Assembly (NCBI RefSeq): GCF_030362835.1
Contig: NZ_JAUCGQ010000001.1
Location: 2,397,461 to 2,461,460 of the forward strand
DNA length: 64,000 nt
Direction of reading: 5' to 3'
Source of the DNA: Cellulomonas alba
Lineage (GTDB): Bacteria > Actinomycetota > Actinomycetes > Actinomycetales > Cellulomonadaceae
Shown: one piece after another, positions 2,575 through 64,000 of the stretch
Numbering within the stretch: position 1 is the first letter of the stretch
Layout of the letters: the number at the start of each line of letters is the position of its first letter
Made by a program: the position numbers and the translations under genes
Notes under the pieces: model-generated
Database searches by the model: none
What the model saw: the letters and a program-made list of their open reading frames with translations, nothing else
What the model was told of the DNA's origin: nothing

Positions 2575-3444
2575 TTAGAGCGCGCGGGCCGCGGCGCGGA
2601 GGTTCTCGGCCACACGCAACGACTCTTTCCTCAGCCGGGCGGCCGCCTCCTCGAGCGTCTCGGCGAACGCCAGGGCACGGCCGGCGTCGCTGACCAGCTC
2701 GAGCTCCACGCGGTCGGCCGTGTCGCCGAGCGCGCTGAGGTAGTCGTCGTACTTGAACCGCGGCTCGGCCCCTCGCACGTCCGGCATCGAGACGAGCGTC
2801 GCAGGGACGCCGAGAGCGTTCGCGAACACGAGGCCGTGCAGGCTCGTCGTGGCGACGAACGGCGCCCCTGCGAGGCGGCGAGCGATCTCGAGCGGCTCCG
2901 TGTTCGGGAGCGCGACCTCGTAGCCGTTCGCGCGCAGGGCGGCGACGGTGCGCGCGCCCTCTCGCGTCGCGAGAACTCCGAAGTGGGGCAGGAACACCGG
3001 CGCGCTCCCACGCCGCACGTCCCCGAGGCCCAGCTCGGCGACCACGACCCCGGGATCGCCCAGCGGGGTGTCCTCGGGCAGGCCCAGTGCGGACCGGGTG
3101 AGGACGCCGCGGACCGCGAGGAAGCTCTCGGCGCGCAGCGGCGCATCAGCGACGCGACCTGTCCGCAGGCCTGATCCGAACACGCGCGCCTGGCCACCGT
3201 TGGCCTGGTAGGTCTCCAGCAGCGACCCGATTCCGTAAACCGATGCGCGCCGCGCGGAGCGCCACCGCACACGCGAGCCCGTGAGCTCGCTCAGGGCCAG
3301 CGGGCTGAATTCATCGCCGAAATTCGAGACGCGTCGCGGGCCGTTTGCTGCCATGCGGTACCATGCTGCCCCGTGCTTCACGAGTTCGCCGGCGACTGCG
3401 CGTAAGGAATGCGTCGGACGCCACCAGTAAAGGTCGATGGTCAT
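2575..3444 (-). CDS. Polysaccharide pyruvyl transferase family protein
   Basis: A 289-residue protein of the PF04230 family, which adds ketal pyruvate to exopolysaccharide sugars. The family features are NFGDEFSPLAL (about 41-51), a GIGSLLE loop, the VFGSGLR segment and a later THAHGL-equivalent TSLHGLVFANALG, where the conserved His lies. Upstream in-frame Met and Arg codons read as Arg-rich non-coding sequence, so the ATG at 3444 (MTIDLYWWRP) is chosen. This start faces the flippase start on the other strand at the same base, so the two genes share a tiny divergent promoter region or are read from within each other. The sugar acceptor is unknown. Confidence 0.75.
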   Translation of the reverse strand: MTIDLYWWRPTHSLRAVAGELVKHGAAWYRMAANGPRRVSNFGDEFSPLALSELTGSRVRWRSARRASVYGIGSLLETYQANGGQARVFGSGLRTGRVADAPLRAESFLAVRGVLTRSALGLPEDTPLGDPGVVVAELGLGDVRRGSAPVFLPHFGVLATREGARTVAALRANGYEVALPNTEPLEIARRLAGAPFVATTSLHGLVFANALGVPATLVSMPDVRGAEPRFKYDDYLSALGDTADRVELELVSDAGRALAFAETLEEAAARLRKESLRVAENLRAAARAL

Positions 3445-4772
3445 TGCAGTATTCCTCTTCCACGAGACGCGTCGATCTCTTGCTGTCGCTCGAGCTTCCC
3501 GCCCTTCAAGTCGCCGGCGCGGTCGTCGCGCTCGGCGCCTGGTGGGCACTGGGTCACACTACTACCGCTGACTTCCAGTCCGTTGCCGTCAAGGCCTACG
3601 CGATCTCGTCGGTCGTGGCATTGCCGGTGACACTCGGGCTCCCCTACTTGATCCCGAATTCCTATCGCGGAGCCTCCGGCCAGGAAATACGCGGACGAGG
3701 ACCGTGGTCACCCTATGTCTCGCTGACGGTCGCTTCGGGACTCATTGCGTACGGTTGCGGGTTGGCCGGGCTGGTGATTCTGGCCTCGCGGCCCTCCGCA
3801 GGGCTCGCCGTCGTGGTGGCGACCTGCTTTGCGGCTGGATTCGTCGCGCTTTCTATTCTCGGTGCGCAGACGGCGCGCGTCATGAACCAGCGCGGCCTGA
3901 TGATCATGTCGAGCCTCGGCCAGGCGCTGCTCCCGCTCACGTGGCTCCTTGCCGGTTGGCTGGGTGCGTCCGCGCACGTCGCGAACGAGCTTCTCGCGGC
4001 CGGTGCGGCACTGGGCTGCGGCCTGCTCGTCTGGCACGAGCGTCGGCGTCTCGTCTCGCCCGTCGCAGCCATCCGGAGCGCCGAGGGCCGGACGATCCGG
4101 TCGGCGCTGCTGCTGATCCCGCACCTCGTGCTCTTCGCGGCGTTCACGCAGGGCATGCGACTGCAGGCGGTCGGCCACGCGAGTCCTGAGCGGGTCGCCG
4201 CGGCGCACGACGTCATGCTCATCATCACGATCGGCGCGACCCTCGCGGGGTCGATCCACGCCTTCATGACCGTGAAGATCCAGGCGGCGCCGGACGGGCT
4301 CGTCGACGAGCGGGTCCGCGTGAACGCGTTCGTGTACGGCGCGATGGCGGTCGTCTGCGCCGTCGGCACGGTCGTCGCGATGGCGTGGCTCGCGCCGCAT
4401 GCGATGTCGAACTTCCCCGACCTCGGACCGGCGAGCGTCGCGGCTCTCGCGCTGGTCCTTCCGTCGATCCTCACGTACTACGCGCTCAGCGGTCTGGCCA
4501 TGCGCGACTCGCGTGCGGTCGTCCTGCTCGTGACGTCGGCGACCACGGTCGCGGCCTACTACGTGACGGCCTCGATCTGGCCGACCACGTCGGCAGCGGA
4601 CGCGAGCATCGAGTACGGGTTGTCCTCGCTGGTGCTTCCTCTGGTGCTGTTCTCGATCCTCATGGCGACCGCGCGCGGGCAGGCCCGGGGCAGGATCGTG
4701 CGCCTGAGCCGCGCGTGCGCGGTCGGGTATGTTCCAGCACTCGCACTGGGGGTCGTGGCATGGGTGCGGTAG
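3444..4772 (+). CDS. Wzx/MATE-type polysaccharide flippase
   Basis: About 442 residues of almost continuous membrane helices (roughly 12-14), with an Arg-rich loop in the middle (HERRRL). The length and the position beside a polymerase and a glycosyltransferase fit a lipid-linked oligosaccharide flippase. The start is uncertain. TTG at 3444 has AAAGG at 3429-3433; TTG at 3480 would begin directly at helix 1. The ATGs at 3345 and 3363 would place an Arg-rich leader over the divergent pyruvyl-transferase gene and are disfavoured. The product acts in the plasma membrane. It starts a co-directional run with 4794 and 6137. Confidence 0.75.
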   Translation: MQYSSSTRRVDLLLSLELPALQVAGAVVALGAWWALGHTTTADFQSVAVKAYAISSVVALPVTLGLPYLIPNSYRGASGQEIRGRGPWSPYVSLTVASGLIAYGCGLAGLVILASRPSAGLAVVVATCFAAGFVALSILGAQTARVMNQRGLMIMSSLGQALLPLTWLLAGWLGASAHVANELLAAGAALGCGLLVWHERRRLVSPVAAIRSAEGRTIRSALLLIPHLVLFAAFTQGMRLQAVGHASPERVAAAHDVMLIITIGATLAGSIHAFMTVKIQAAPDGLVDERVRVNAFVYGAMAVVCAVGTVVAMAWLAPHAMSNFPDLGPASVAALALVLPSILTYYALSGLAMRDSRAVVLLVTSATTVAAYYVTASIWPTTSAADASIEYGLSSLVLPLVLFSILMATARGQARGRIVRLSRACAVGYVPALALGVVAWVR

Positions 4773-4793
4773 CGACGGCGCAGGGGAGCTCCG

Positions 4794-6140
4794 GTGCGCG
4801 CTGACCTCCTGATCGCGGCGGCGGCGGCTGCGACCGTCGCCGTGTTCCTGGTCTGCGCTGCGCGGGGCGTCCGTGCCGGCGTGTGGATCGCGATCCTCGT
4901 CGCGTCGACCATCGTCCCGCTGCTCCTGACGCACGGGACGGACATCTACCACGTGGGGATCGCGGACGCCGTGCCCGGCGTCCGGACGTACACCGTCCTG
5001 CTCGTGGCCCTGACGGCGATCGGGCTGGTCGCACTCAGGCACGCGCCGATGCCCTTGGCCCTCGTGGCCTTCGTGTGCGTCCTGGCGGTCCTGTACCTCG
5101 CCGTCTGGCCGCGGTCCTCGTTCATCGAGGCCGGCGTGCTCCAGCTCCTCATCGGCATCTGCGGGTGGTACGTCGGCAGTGCCTGGGGTGGCGGCTCGCC
5201 ATTGCGAGAACGCGAGGCCTCGGCGATCGCGACGACCGTCCTCGGGATTGTCGTGGCCCAGATCATTTTCGCAGCGGTGCAGCTGTCTGGACACCGCCCT
5301 TCGATTCTTACGCCGGTCGACGCGGCCCTTCTCGGGAACCGTGTCAACGGCACGGCGAATCACCCCGACACGCTCGGGAAGCTGCTTTTCATGGTGATGC
5401 TCGTGGGCCTGTGGCTCATCGGGTCGGGTTACCGCAGCGTGAGCAGAAAGGCGGCGTGGGCCGTCGGGCTCGCCTATATCCCGCTGCTGCTGTCCCAGGG
5501 GCGTGCAAACATTGTGGCCGCCATTGTTCTCACCGTCTTCTGGGGATATCTTCTCCCGCGCGACACACTTCCGAGAGCCCGGACGGCGGCGCTCTTCGGT
5601 GGCTGGATCGTCGGGATGATGTCGCTTGGTGTCCTGGCGTCACGTTTCGACGAGGATCCGACCGGTGGCGTGCGTGGCCAGCTCCTGACAAACGCCTATG
5701 GCCAACTGCACCGGACGTTCTGGCTGGGCACGGGGCCGAACAACTACACGAATGTGGTCGGACCGTTGACCGGGTCGTGGATCCCGGTGCACAACTCATT
5801 TCTTCTGCTGGTGGCCGAGGTCGGCGCTATCGGTGCGGCCGCGTTCTTCGTGGGGCTCGTGGTGATCTGGGCACGCGCGTGGGGCCGACGCCGCGCGACC
5901 ACGCCCCAGGGCGCGGCGGCCCGCGTGCTCATCGCCTCGATCCCCGGCGTCGTGCTCATCGGCATGACCGGCTGGGGCCTGTTCGGGACGTCCGTGCTCG
6001 CACTGTGGATGTTCGTCTACGGCGCGCTCTACAGCACGCTGCGCTGGAACGGGTCGGTCGGGCTGGTCGGCTCGAGCTTGGAGCTCGAGACCGCGCGCCG
6101 CGCGCCGAGCCTCGAGCTGCGGTCGGTGAAGCGCACATGA
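4794..6140 (+). CDS. O-antigen ligase/polymerase-like membrane protein (Wzy)
   Basis: A 448-residue protein with about 11-12 membrane helices and one larger external loop. It contains GNRVNGTANHPDTLGKL at about residues 181-197 and WLGTGPNNYTNVVGP later, both characteristic of Wzy_C/O-antigen ligase proteins. It probably joins flipped repeat units outside the membrane. The GTG at 4794 has GGGGAG seven bases upstream and sits 21 bases after the flippase stop. The stop overlaps the next start (ATGA at 6137-6140), which implies translational coupling with the glycosyltransferase. Confidence 0.8.
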   Translation: MRADLLIAAAAAATVAVFLVCAARGVRAGVWIAILVASTIVPLLLTHGTDIYHVGIADAVPGVRTYTVLLVALTAIGLVALRHAPMPLALVAFVCVLAVLYLAVWPRSSFIEAGVLQLLIGICGWYVGSAWGGGSPLREREASAIATTVLGIVVAQIIFAAVQLSGHRPSILTPVDAALLGNRVNGTANHPDTLGKLLFMVMLVGLWLIGSGYRSVSRKAAWAVGLAYIPLLLSQGRANIVAAIVLTVFWGYLLPRDTLPRARTAALFGGWIVGMMSLGVLASRFDEDPTGGVRGQLLTNAYGQLHRTFWLGTGPNNYTNVVGPLTGSWIPVHNSFLLLVAEVGAIGAAAFFVGLVVIWARAWGRRRATTPQGAAARVLIASIPGVVLIGMTGWGLFGTSVLALWMFVYGALYSTLRWNGSVGLVGSSLELETARRAPSLELRSVKRT

Positions 6141-59453: not shown

Positions 59454-59942
59454 GTGACGACGCCCCCTGAGCCGCAGTCGGCCCCCGCGGACCTCGATGA
59501 CGAGGCCGCGCTGGTCCGCCCGCTGTCCCGCATCGCCTACGCGTTCTGCGCCGCGCTCGTGGCCATCGGTCTGCTGGGCGCCTTCGTCCTGGTGCCCGAC
59601 CCCGTCGTGACCCTCGGTGGACTCGCCCTGGGGCTCGGGCTCGGGCTGGTGTCGCTGGTCGTGCCGCCGCTCCTGATCCGCGGCGGCCTGCGGCGCGGGA
59701 CGGGCCGGACGGCCGACCCGGCGAGCGAGCACGCCGTGGTCCGGACCGCCGTCTTCATAGGCCTGGCGTTCGCCGAGCTGCCCGCGCTCGTCGCACTCTC
59801 GCTCGTGGCGAGCGACGGCAACCACGACGTCGGGGCGCTGCTGATCTCCGTGCCGTTCGCGATCGTCTCGCTCCTCGTGAACGTGGCCGGAGCGGGCGCC
59901 GTGCGCCGGCACCTGCGGCGGATCCGCGGAGGAGTTGCCTGA
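59454..59942 (+). CDS. Small membrane protein of unknown function
   Basis: 162 residues and four membrane helices: IAYAFCAALVAIGLLGAFVL, LGLGLGLVSLVVPPLLIRGG, TAVFIGLAFAELPALVALSL and LLISVPFAIVSLLVNVAGAG. The helix pattern superficially resembles ATP-synthase subunit c but the length and ends do not. The GTG at 59454 follows the DUF5995 gene by 42 bases. Confidence 0.6.
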   Translation: MTTPPEPQSAPADLDDEAALVRPLSRIAYAFCAALVAIGLLGAFVLVPDPVVTLGGLALGLGLGLVSLVVPPLLIRGGLRRGTGRTADPASEHAVVRTAVFIGLAFAELPALVALSLVASDGNHDVGALLISVPFAIVSLLVNVAGAGAVRRHLRRIRGGVA

Positions 59943-60090
59943 CCGGGCACGTCGGCAGTGTGACCACGGTCCCAGCCTGCCCGTGTCAAGGCCGCACCTC
60001 GCGTTGCCGATAATTCTCCCGGCTGCTCCCACCGGAGCGTCGCCGCCACGTCGAGCGCGACCCGCTCCCCGAAGAGCCCCGAGGCCCTCC

Positions 60091-61590
60091 ATGCATCACC
60101 TCGTCCGCCGTTCCTCCGCCACGCTGGGCGCGCTCGCGCTCGTCGCGATCGGCGCGCTCGCCGGCGCGCAGTCCGCGTCCGCCGTGGCCGGCGACCCTAC
60201 CGACACGACGCTGACCGTGGCCGGCACGGTCGCCACGGGGCACAACCTCGCGGGAACGGTCTCAGTTACCGGTTTCGTCGCCGCGCTGCCCGACGCCGTC
60301 GTCGACCTGAGCGTCGACGGTGGCACCGCGACCGAGGTCCCGCTGACGGTCGACATGCCGTCCACGGGAACGGGGACCGGCAGCGCGTCGATCTCGGTGC
60401 CGACCACGGGGCTGGCGCTGGGCGACCACACGCTGACCGCGAGCTTCGCGGCGCAGGGCACGCTCGCCGCGTCGCAGGACGTCGCCACGTTCACGGTGCT
60501 GCCCGCGAGCGTCGCGTGGCAGCTGCGCTACGCCGACGGCTCGAAGGTGGGCGCGACGCTGACGCAGTTCGTCGTGCACGCGGTCGGCTCCGACCAGATC
60601 CCAGGCGCGGCCGTGTCGCTGATGGCCGGCATGGACGGGCTCCTCGACGGGGAGGAGATCGGGCACGGCACGGTCAAGGCAGACGGCTCGTTCGACGTGT
60701 CGGCCAACGTGTTCGACGCCGACGTCGTCCTGCCGGGCACTTCGACCGACTACTGGGTGGTCGTGACGCCGTCGGGCCAGCCCGCGATCGCCGGCGCAAA
60801 GGTGAGCGTCGCCGCGCCGCTGCTCTCGTTCAAGATCGCCCTCGAGACCCCGGCGAACCCCAAGCGCGGCATCGCGCGCGTCTCGTTCACCACGTCGATA
60901 GCGACGGTCTGGCTCGACGAGGTCCTCGCCGACCCCGCCGACACGATCGACGCCGCGGGCCTCAAGGAGGGGTTCAAGGAGGGCGGTGTCTTCCTGCTCG
61001 TCGACGGCAAGCCGGTCGACCCCGCCACCATCAAGCTCGCCGACGGCGCCGCGGGCATCGTCAAGGGTTCGTTCCCCGCGCCTGCGGTGGGCAAGCACAC
61101 CGCGCAGCTCGTCGTCCCGGGCTTCGAGGGCATCCTCGAGGACTCCGCCTCGCCGGTGCGTAGCTTCACGATCCGTGCGCGCGTGCTGACTCCGGTCGTC
61201 CACCACCACGGCGACGTGCACCCCGGCGACTCGATCACCGTGACGGGCACGGGCGTGCAGCCGCACGCCACCGTGAAGATCGTGCTGCACTCGACGCCCG
61301 TCACGCTCGGGACGGTCAAGGCCGACGCGTCCGGCGCCTTCTCGGCGACCGTGGTGATCCCCGGCAGCACGCCGGCCGGTGCGCACACGATCGTCGTGAC
61401 GGCCACGGCGGCCGGCACCGCGAAGGTCACGGGTTCGACGCCGCTGACGGTCGTCGCGGTGGACCCGAGCAGCGAGCTGGCCACCACCGGTAGCAACGAC
61501 GCGGGCCTCGGCGGCATCGCCGGCGCGCTCGTGCTCGCGGGCGCCGGCGCCGTGGTGCTCGCCCGCCGCGCCACCCGCTCGCACTCCTGA
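60091..61590 (+). CDS. Sortase-anchored surface protein with Ig-like domains (LATTG motif)
   Basis: 499 residues: signal peptide 1-31 (ALAGAQSASA), four or five beta-sandwich domains without clear catalytic residues, and a HHHGDVHPGDSITVTGTGVQ segment beginning the last Ig-like/IPT domain. The C-terminus has LATTGSNDAG (about 463-472), a hydrophobic helix and ARRATRSHS. The sorting motif and tail match the proteins at 105 and 20897. Adhesion or wall structure is inferred. Confidence 0.8.
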   Translation: MHHLVRRSSATLGALALVAIGALAGAQSASAVAGDPTDTTLTVAGTVATGHNLAGTVSVTGFVAALPDAVVDLSVDGGTATEVPLTVDMPSTGTGTGSASISVPTTGLALGDHTLTASFAAQGTLAASQDVATFTVLPASVAWQLRYADGSKVGATLTQFVVHAVGSDQIPGAAVSLMAGMDGLLDGEEIGHGTVKADGSFDVSANVFDADVVLPGTSTDYWVVVTPSGQPAIAGAKVSVAAPLLSFKIALETPANPKRGIARVSFTTSIATVWLDEVLADPADTIDAAGLKEGFKEGGVFLLVDGKPVDPATIKLADGAAGIVKGSFPAPAVGKHTAQLVVPGFEGILEDSASPVRSFTIRARVLTPVVHHHGDVHPGDSITVTGTGVQPHATVKIVLHSTPVTLGTVKADASGAFSATVVIPGSTPAGAHTIVVTATAAGTAKVTGSTPLTVVAVDPSSELATTGSNDAGLGGIAGALVLAGAGAVVLARRATRSHS

Positions 61591-61635: not shown

Positions 61636-61705
61636 GTCGGCGTCTCCGGGGTCGACTCGGGGCGTGCCTCCCGCCGTCGGGCCGCGGGTGGCGCAAGATC
61701 GCGGG

Positions 61706-62248
61706 ATGGCTGTGCCGCACCTGATGGAGATCCACGGCCCGGAGTTCCAGGCGATGGCGGCCCGCGTCCTCGAGGTCACCGCGCTCACCTCGCGCCTGAA
61801 CGCGCTGCCCTTCGACGACGAGCCCGGGAAGGCCGCTCTGCTCGAGCAGATCCTCGGCCGCCCGCTCGCGCCGCGCGTCACGATCTACCCGCCCTTCTAC
61901 ACGGACCACGGGCTCAACCTCGAGCTGGGCGAGCGGGTGTTCGTCGACCAGGGCTGCACGTTCCTCGACTACGCCGGGATCCGGCTCGCCGAACGCGTGA
62001 TGGTCGGGCCGCGCGTCACGTTCATCACGAGCGGCCACCCGGTCGATCCCGCCGAGCGGAAGCGCTACCTGACGGGCGCGCCGATCGACGTCGCGGAGAA
62101 CGTCTGGATCGGCGCCGGCGCGACGATCCTGCCGGGCGTGAGCATCGGGCGGGACGCGGTGGTCGCCGCGGGTGCGGTGGTCGCCGACGACGTGCCGGCC
62201 GCGTCCCTGGTGGCGGGGCCGAAGGCGACGGTCCGCCGCACCTGGTGA
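61706..62248 (+). CDS. Left-handed beta-helix O-acetyltransferase (maltose/galactoside type)
   Basis: 180 residues. The N-terminal helical cap (ARVLEVTALTSRLNALPFDD) and the LbH repeats (NLELGERVFVDQGCTFLDYA, IRLAERVMVGPRVTFITSGH, APIDVAENVWIGAGATILPG, GVSIGRDAVVAAGAVVADDV) match the acetyl-CoA-dependent sugar O-acetyltransferases. The catalytic His is in ITSGHPVDP. The substrate is unknown. Confidence 0.9.
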   Translation: MAVPHLMEIHGPEFQAMAARVLEVTALTSRLNALPFDDEPGKAALLEQILGRPLAPRVTIYPPFYTDHGLNLELGERVFVDQGCTFLDYAGIRLAERVMVGPRVTFITSGHPVDPAERKRYLTGAPIDVAENVWIGAGATILPGVSIGRDAVVAAGAVVADDVPAASLVAGPKATVRRTW

Positions 62249-62277: not shown

Positions 62278-63588
62278 CTACCCGACGACCGTCAGCGTGT
62301 CGGGGTCGACCGTGAACAGGGTGTCGAGCACCGCCTCGGCGGCTGCGATGTCGTCCGCGGCAACCGCGGCCCGCACCTCACGCAGCGTGGCGACCGTCCC
62401 GGGCCCGAGGATCGCGGGTTCGTGCATCGCGTACCACCGGACGCGCGTCGACAGCCGCGCCAGCGTCTCCGCCAGTACCGCGTTCCCGGAGATGGGTGCG
62501 ATCTCGTCGCCGGTGCGCCCCACCAGCCCGAGGAGCCCGTGCCGGCCAGAGCCCTGCGCGTCGATCGCCTCCGTGAACACGGCGAGCACCGCCTCGCGGT
62601 CTCGGGCGCAGGCGAGGCGCAGCGACAGGCGGCGGAGCGCCCCGACGGCACGGAGCGCGGCGACGACGCCGGCCCGGTCGAGCGTCGCCACGCGTGCCGG
62701 CTGGTGGTAGCGCTGGACGACGAGGCCGAGCGCCGTCAGCGTCCGGAGCGCGTTCCGCACCGGTGTGCGTGAGATGCCGAGCCAGCGCATCAGCTCGGAC
62801 TCGCGGAGCGGCTCGCCGGGGACGAGCGTGCCGTCGAGCAGCGCGTCCCGGATCGCGTCGGTCGCGCGGTCGCGGATCAGCGGGGAGCGTGGCAGGGCAT
62901 CCGTCGGGTCGTCGGGGGTACGGGGTGACGTCGCAGCCTCGTGCTCGAGGTGGAGCACGGTCGCCCGGAACGCGGTGGCCGCCGCCTGGCCGTCGCCTGC
63001 GAGAGCGGCGCGGATGGTCGCCCGCTGGTTGCGGCGCGTGGCCTCGACGTCGACGCGATCCGTGTGCAGGCGGCCGAACCGCGCCATCGTCGGTGAGAGC
63101 CACGTGCGGACCCGGTCGAGGTCCGGGTTGCCCGCACGCGCATAGAAGACGTCGTAGAGCTCGCGCTGGCGGCTCTCGCGCAGCGCCCGGCGCAGCTGGT
63201 CGGTCGAGCCCAGCGCGTCCGCGCGGTACGCGCGCAGGCGCTCACGGTCGCCGTCCGTGAGCCGCGGGGTGGCCTCGAGGATCGCCTCCGTCGCGATCTC
63301 ACCGATGACGACCGCTGTCTGCGCCACGTGCTCGGGGTCGACCGGCGCGACGTACGTCGCGCGGCGCGGCTCGACCACCGCCAGGCCCAGGAGCGCGAGC
63401 TTCGCGATCGCGTCGCGGATCGCGGCGAGCGGGGCGTCGAACTGGCGGCAGAGCTCGGCCTCGACGAGGCGTGCGCCCGGCGCGAGATCGCCCGCGACGA
63501 CGGCGTCGACGAGGCGTCGTTCGACGTCTGCGCGCTGCGGCGTGCCGCTCAGGTCGAGGGTTCCGCCCGGGATCGGCACGCCGCCCAC
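62278..63588 (-). CDS. Tandem-fused GntR/FadR-type regulator
   Basis: 436 residues made of two FadR-like units in one chain. Unit 1 (about 20-215) has a winged helix (VVAGDLAPGARLVEAELCRQ, APLAAIRDAIAKLALLGLAV) and an FCD-like helical domain. Unit 2 (about 235-430) repeats this (LLDGTLVPGEPLRESELMRW, ISRTPVRNALRTLTALGLVV). Normal GntR regulators have one unit of about 220 residues, so this is an unusual covalent dimer. It diverges from the surface-protein gene at 63686, a likely target. Confidence 0.85.
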   Translation of the reverse strand: MGGVPIPGGTLDLSGTPQRADVERRLVDAVVAGDLAPGARLVEAELCRQFDAPLAAIRDAIAKLALLGLAVVEPRRATYVAPVDPEHVAQTAVVIGEIATEAILEATPRLTDGDRERLRAYRADALGSTDQLRRALRESRQRELYDVFYARAGNPDLDRVRTWLSPTMARFGRLHTDRVDVEATRRNQRATIRAALAGDGQAAATAFRATVLHLEHEAATSPRTPDDPTDALPRSPLIRDRATDAIRDALLDGTLVPGEPLRESELMRWLGISRTPVRNALRTLTALGLVVQRYHQPARVATLDRAGVVAALRAVGALRRLSLRLACARDREAVLAVFTEAIDAQGSGRHGLLGLVGRTGDEIAPISGNAVLAETLARLSTRVRWYAMHEPAILGPGTVATLREVRAAVAADDIAAAEAVLDTLFTVDPDTLTVVG

Positions 63589-63593
63589 CCTAC

Positions 63594-63645
63594 TGCTGAA
63601 AGTTGAGACGTTCGTCCTGAAACTGGACAGTGCACGCTGAAATAC
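63594..63645. promoter_or_regulatory. Divergent promoter region with CTGAAA repeats
   Basis: An A/T-rich intergenic stretch with three CTGAAA(N) elements at about 63595, 63618 and 63640, spaced roughly two DNA turns apart. It is a plausible operator for the tandem GntR protein and the promoter for the genes on both sides. Confidence 0.45.
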
Positions 63646-63685
63646 ATTTGGGAGGTCAGTTCAGCGCCTCACACCGGGGGACCCC

Positions 63686-64000
63686 ATGCGCACCGTTCGT
63701 ATCGCGACGGCGGCCGGACTCGCCGCCGTCCTCGCAGGCGGCGCGGCGACAGCCGCCGCCGCCGATCCGGGAACGCCGGGCCAGCCGCAGGCCGGCCGCG
63801 TCGTGTTCCACGAAGACTTCCAGAACGCGCCCGCGACCGGCCTGCGCACCATGCTCAGCGCGTACGTCGGCGCGAACGGCGAGACGTACACCGCCGACCC
63901 GTACTGGATGAACGCGGTCAAGGCCAACGGCATGGTGCTGTCGTTCAAGAGCACGCCCGCCGCGAAGGACGCGACCGGCGCCGGGAACGGCACCGAGACC
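63686..64000 (+). CDS. Secreted protein, 5' end only
   Basis: 105 residues are visible before the window ends. A signal peptide (MRTVRIATAAGLAAVLAGGA, cleavage near 26) is followed by RVVFHEDFQNAPATGLRTML and WMNAVKANGMVLSFKSTPAA, the sort of start seen in large Actinobacterial adhesins and extracellular enzymes. The ribosome-binding region GGGGGACCCC resembles that before the surface gene at 105. The full domain content cannot be told. Confidence 0.7.
   Translation, partial: MRTVRIATAAGLAAVLAGGAATAAAADPGTPGQPQAGRVVFHEDFQNAPATGLRTMLSAYVGANGETYTADPYWMNAVKANGMVLSFKSTPAAKDATGAGNGTET

Follow-up and report, generated by a model that had tools for sequence, protein, structure and literature searches.

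Towards one end of the window, the 64,000-nucleotide stretch of Cellulomonas alba DNA that was analysed, an uninterrupted minus-strand open reading frame (ORF) at 62278-63588 encodes 436 residues, a single chain with two GntR-FCD units. A sequence-only reading of the window had recorded this ORF; its existence was confirmed, and its extent required correction. Because 17 of 17 fused homologues begin with (M/V)PIP, the true start is most likely the GTG at 63577-63579, three codons further in, so that the predicted gene spans 62278-63579 on the minus strand and encodes 433 aa. A candidate -10 hexamer of the regulator, TAGGGT (63587-63592, minus strand), was found by eye 7 nt before this GTG, and 13 of the 17 loci show a hexamer of the form T(A/T)NNNT 5-7 nt 5′ of the start (by eye). 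With a putative -10 hexamer so near the start, the regulator mRNA may be leaderless. On the other side of this promoter region a divergent surface-protein gene starts at 63686 on the plus strand and is cut by the window end at 64000; it would end at 65824 and encode 712 aa (L039, 6147-8285). On its downstream side the regulator gene converges with 61664-62248, a gene that looks acetyltransferase-like by eye.

Each half of the chain consists of a GntR winged helix-turn-helix (HTH) followed by an FCD domain and belongs to the FadR/FCD subfamily. The first GntR winged HTH (63349-63531, minus strand; residues 20-80 of the 436-aa ORF) and the second, better conserved one, which carries SRTPVR (62698-62871, minus strand; residues 240-297), matched Pfam GntR at 37.4 and 53.8 bits, both above the cut-off of 27 bits. 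The first FCD domain (62962-63297, minus strand; residues 98-209) passed the Pfam FCD cut-off of 24.3 bits with 28.7 bits, and the second (62320-62643, minus strand; residues 316-423) was weak and fell short of it at 19.6 bits. Across the fused homologues, the GntR winged HTH (PF00392) was matched at E 0.01 by 17/17 N halves and 17/17 C halves, and FCD (PF07729) at the same E value by 7/17 N halves and 11/17 C halves. The N-half family profile (positions 12-216 of 225) aligned to the solved FadR-type GntR 7u5q and the C-half profile (positions 24-194 of 209) to the solved FadR-type GntR 3ihu, both profiles extending into the FCD of the solved structures. Single-sequence AlphaFold2 structure prediction gave a mean pLDDT of 40, too low for the model to be informative. 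The description of the protein as two complete HTH-FCD units is right for the fold and wrong for the key residue of the first HTH, which has Leu for Arg.

A search for double-length GntR proteins, the check that had been proposed for this locus, showed that 16 of the 221 genomes of the family (3 of 25 genera) carry full-length fused homologues, 17 in total; in the genus of the source organism the fused regulator was present in 12 of 81 genomes, as counted from the match listings. Outside the family, only one unit was covered among the matches listed for a sample of the order (396 genomes, E up to 1e-18) and among those listed, best scores first, for a sample of the class (394 genomes). Plasmid records gave 59 matches, none of which spanned 80% of the query at a single site, and a further contig search gave a single weak match, limited to regulator residues 14-107. 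No second full-length fused copy was present among the four other matches in the source genome, where two long open frames (L004 and L005) contain one GntR unit each and the frames at L002 and L003 measure 281 and 261 aa. We also considered that an assembly or sequencing error had merged two genes. This possibility is next to nil and was rejected, because the full-length homologues are spread over 16 genomes and each is one open frame without an internal stop.

That a regulator had been duplicated and fused into one chain, as first supposed from the window sequence, was borne out by these homologues and by comparison of the halves. The N-half and C-half profiles matched as homologues, at 99.7% over 194 columns, and a tree was built from the 17 N and 17 C halves together with 35 single-unit GntRs. 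In it one branch (99/98) set the N halves apart and another (82/64) the C halves, the latter values becoming 98/99 once the single L040 joins the C halves. Because the tree was midpoint-rooted and contains several long branches, its deep joins are unsure. Apparently, one old duplication and fusion of a complete wHTH-FCD unit took place before the members compared here diverged. Genome G292, from another family of the order, carries two adjoining unfused GntR genes (L040, 741-1385 and 1462-2109). The products of this pair (L040, L123) begin MPVP... and MPIP..., the product of the second gene is the single protein that joins the C halves in the tree (98/99), and a divergent gene encodes a secreted protein (signal by eye). 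The pair thus resembles the fused regulator in having two neighbouring MPVP/MPIP GntR copies and a divergent secreted protein, and differs in that the genes are separate and the secreted protein is not the MucBP protein. At L123, the region at 3240-5944 near the unfused pair also encodes an HTH-less FCD-like fragment and secreted proteins whose signals look Tat-like (by eye). An MP(I/V/L)P start was shared by 27 of the 29 single-unit loci (L094-L122) that the class search had supplied, a likeness that comes partly from selection since these singles were picked by the fused-family profile. The N halves retain the MP(I/V/L)P-type start, and the C halves retain the DGTL-PGE...WLGVSRTPVR stretch. 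As single, tandem pair and fusion are each found among the relatives, all three states exist, and we infer that a tandem pair such as that of G292 was the ancestor of the fusion.

The proposal of two different DNA-binding halves holds as divergence, the N and C halves separating in the tree. Over the 17 members, mean pairwise identity was 0.597 for the second HTH, 0.501 for the first HTH and 0.323 for the first FCD domain (FCD1), and the first HTH of the window copy, which reads APLAAIRDAI, averaged 0.421 identity with the other members. An excerpt of PMC4494728 describes the main base-specific contact as a bond of the recognition-helix Arg to G. At the position of FadR Arg45, the first HTH has Arg in 16 of 17 members, with Leu in the window copy alone, and the second HTH has Arg in 15 of 17 members, the window copy included, with His in L012 and L017. 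In L006 and L007 the first HTH carries Gly in place of the Arg49 equivalent; beyond the Arg position, P71, R72, T75 and V77 of the first HTH are invariant.

The companion proposal of two ligand-binding halves was not supported for ligands of the usual FCD type. The Asp-x3-His motif and one more His (columns 305, 309 and 355), which we take to be the metal-ligand site of FCD domains, were present in 31, 32 and 32 of the 35 single-unit proteins, and were found in 1, 1 and 0 of 17 N halves and in 0, 0 and 0 of 17 C halves. The loss of these residues in both halves, a difference from the single relatives, makes a simple metabolite switch of the type common among FCD proteins less likely. The metal-ligand site is absent from some FadR-type proteins, and the FCD halves could still accept a ligand of another kind.

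The divergent surface protein contains DUF7933 and three MucBP stretches (Pfam), together with a signal peptide and an LAxTG-type C-terminal anchor recognised by eye, and its N domain, the first ~250 residues (VVFHEDFQNAP...FDDIEVVDVTPQ), matched no Pfam family at E 0.01. The N domain recurs in 28 of the 221 family genomes; at 59% identity or more (59-100%) it is found in nine genomes, which are exactly the nine that carry the divergent fused regulator. The divergent pair of regulator and MucBP surface gene accounts for 9 of the 17 fused loci, all in the same genus as the source organism. The fused regulators of the other 8 loci have other neighbours and not this surface gene; at L018, a different secreted protein is encoded divergently from the regulator (by eye). 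No fused-regulator match was detected (E 1e-4) in the flanks examined at 12 loci, which represent 12 of the 19 genomes with weaker N-domain matches.

Between the divergent genes, a block of ~53 bp is kept in register in the nine paired loci, being one base shorter in L010. With the L006/L007 pair left out, mean pairwise identity was 0.655 in the block and 0.314 and 0.356 in its flanks; without the last 14 columns the block value was 0.578, whereas the highest of 500 shuffles gave 0.298. The last bases of the block read (C/G)TGAAATACATT in 8 of 9 loci and CTGAAATACGCT in L010. GCTGAAATACATT is single in the source genome even when one mismatch is allowed, and CTGAAATACATT was found in 7 of the 221 genomes, six times at the regulator/surface-gene divergon and the seventh time within an open frame. 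Three CTGAAA repeats had been noted in this promoter. All three are present on the plus strand (63596, 63617 and 63637), where the whole 64-kb window contains five copies. The middle one (63617-63622) is at that place in none of the 8 other loci and was rejected as a conserved third site. The most conserved element is the proximal GCTGAAA with TACATT, a candidate surface-gene -10 (63636-63648, plus strand); its repeat reads (C/G)TGAAA in 9/9 loci. At the distal place (GCTGAAA, 63595-63601, plus strand), CTGAAA itself recurs in 2 of the 8 other surface-gene loci (L014 and L015), and (C/G)TGAA(A/C) is found in 6 of 9 loci, the repeat being missing in L010, L013 and L016.

The pair at 63595 and 63636, 41 bp apart, was the best direct repeat of the block and was reached by none of 60 column shuffles. 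In larger sets, it was reached by 3 of 1500 shuffles with an 8-base window, 12 of 600 with a 6-base window and 19 of 600 with a 10-base window. When L007, a near-copy of L006, was left out, it was reached by 9 of 1500 and 37 of 600 shuffles, and with a 10-base window an offset of 19 beat that of 41. The best inverted repeat of the block was equalled by 40 of 60 column shuffles. The inverted repeat GGAC-N4-GTCC, convincing by eye, scored 0.50 against a 95% limit of 0.54 in column shuffles and was rejected; because it failed this control, the notion of a joint decay of its left arm and the first HTH was dropped as well. No consistent GT..AC box of the TKGT-N2/3-ACMA type was seen by eye across the nine loci. 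For the asymmetric operator suggested from the window sequence, the direct repeat, which beat column shuffles as no inverted repeat did, is at most a candidate site.

Sequences of the same kind were found at related surface genes without the regulator. Of the 12 regulator-free genes, 6 have (C/G)TGAAA in the 420 nt that precede them (L081, L083-L086 and L091, four of them from one genus), with 0.043 expected per locus; in the same six loci a GGGTGAAA element lies 320-395 nt before the N domain, and that of L091 reads GGTGAAAGTCGG, as in L006 and L007. This speaks against a regulator-specific motif, and (C/G)TGAAA may be older than, or independent of, the fused regulator. The longer box TGAAATA was present in 9/9 paired loci and absent from the 420 nt upstream of the surface gene in all 12 regulator-free loci. 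L018 and L019, where the regulator has other neighbours, have CTGAAATA upstream of it. These two loci, from another genus, share GGGAC(T/C)AAAGTCCC and CTGAAATATAGACT, 144 and 136 nt from the regulator start.

We tentatively propose, as a possibility that falls short of being probable, that the fused protein is a local regulator that holds down both divergent promoters, that of its own gene and that of the surface protein. Each HTH would dock on one CTGAAA half-site, one beside the regulator's own -10 and the other at the -10 of the surface gene. In the window copy, the proximal repeat touches the surface-gene -10 and the distal one is just upstream of the regulator's own candidate -10. The half-sites, about four helical turns apart, would lie on the same DNA face, so that a single molecule could repress both promoters at once, combining autorepression with repression of the surface protein. 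The one-chain fusion would keep the HTHs together and leave each free to drift, the first HTH of the window copy having drifted further; release might come from an unusual ligand, a partner protein or a change in concentration. Several observations weigh against a repressor of two promoters. The proximal repeat, which shares bases with the -10-like TACATT, may be nothing more than promoter; 41 bp is a long span for a 433-aa chain to bridge with its two HTHs unless the DNA is bent; and the 8 of 17 fused regulators that stand away from the surface gene count against it. So do the occurrence of (C/G)TGAAA at regulator-free surface genes, the loss of the distal repeat from three loci and the weaker repeat test without L007. 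FadR-type dimers mostly read palindromes, according to an excerpt of PMC4494728, which counts against the reading of a direct repeat. In its full form, the proposal would be of a fused pseudo-dimer without the usual ligand sensing that sits on a direct repeat rather than a palindrome, one chain bridging divergent promoters about four helical turns apart and switching surface protein and regulator together, with HTHs free to evolve apart; we consider this whole picture rather unlikely. If it were true, the window copy would show two HTHs caught in the course of evolving apart.

A different and somewhat unlikely arrangement is that the protein activates the surface gene, binding mid-block ~31 bp upstream of TACATT and recruiting polymerase, perhaps while also repressing itself. 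The promoter has a -10 and no recognisable -35 before TACATT (by eye), 25 nt separate the GTCC core (GTCA in L015) from TACATT in 8 of 9 loci, and 24 nt in L010 (hand count), and E. coli FadR, as stated in an excerpt of PMC4259882, is both repressor and activator. The site that such an activator would use, however, is GGAC-N4-GTCC, which stayed within column shuffles, as did the best inverted repeat of the block, matched by 40 of 60. Repression of both promoters, as proposed, would make use of both HTHs, and the unequal conservation of the two allows an account, on balance unlikely, in which the second HTH alone reads DNA, the first unit is becoming a structural or partner-binding module and the fused chains dimerise as usual. 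Consistent with this are the higher conservation of the second HTH (0.597 versus 0.501), the divergence of the window copy's first HTH (0.421), which has lost the Arg45 equivalent, and the Gly at the first-HTH Arg49 equivalent in L006 and L007. Yet the first HTH keeps its Arg in 16 of 17 members and its invariant P71, R72, T75 and V77, its conservation is far above that of FCD1 (0.323), and the HTH altered in L012 and L017, to His, is the second.

More clearly improbable is that the block serves the promoters themselves or some other factor, with the fused regulator acting in trans on other genes. The surface gene is missing at 8 of 17 loci, the strongest element of the block overlaps a -10, and (C/G)TGAAA precedes 6 of 12 related surface genes that have no regulator, all of which would fit such a separation. 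It is opposed by the distribution of TGAAATA, in 9/9 paired loci and 0/12 regulator-free ones, and by CTGAAATA, which L018 and L019 still have upstream of the regulator despite their other neighbours.

Compared with known systems, the regulator resembles the FadR subfamily (E. coli FadR, LldR, TM0439 and McbR) in the GntR winged HTH and FCD of each half and in having its gene divergent from the likely target. In contrast to these homodimers, with one HTH per subunit, the fused protein has two units and two HTHs per chain, and the TKGT-N2/3-ACMA palindrome is without support in its promoter. With actinobacterial MP(I/V/L)P single GntRs it shares the N-terminal motif and the DGTL-PGE-L...WLGVSRTPVR stretch of the HTH; these singles differ in being one unit of about 214-235 aa and in keeping the ligand residues in most cases. 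The M-P-(I/V/L)-P of these single-unit proteins precedes the HTH. NanR, FarR and NagQ are single-unit proteins. Direct-repeat operators are described for these three members of the GntR superfamily in an excerpt of PMC4494728; the fused regulator would be like them in this respect, and the motifs differ. Among the matches listed in a search of the open-licence literature, titles and abstract openings mention no fused double GntR. The parts of the protein are ordinary. Its distinguishing features are that two units are fused, that the fusion is kept in 16 genomes and that the ligand site is gone; some actinobacteria thus carry a genuine, if narrow, variant of a very common regulator family.

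Many GntR regulators are homodimers on palindromes, which ties their half-sites together. A one-chain double regulator, with single relatives and an unfused pair for comparison, offers a test case for the loss of operator symmetry after fusion. It is also a candidate regulator for the large MucBP surface protein of these actinobacteria. At the same locus, the second gene downstream of the regulator (59935-61590, plus strand) encodes another secreted protein, with a C-terminal LATTG-type cell-wall anchor (by eye).
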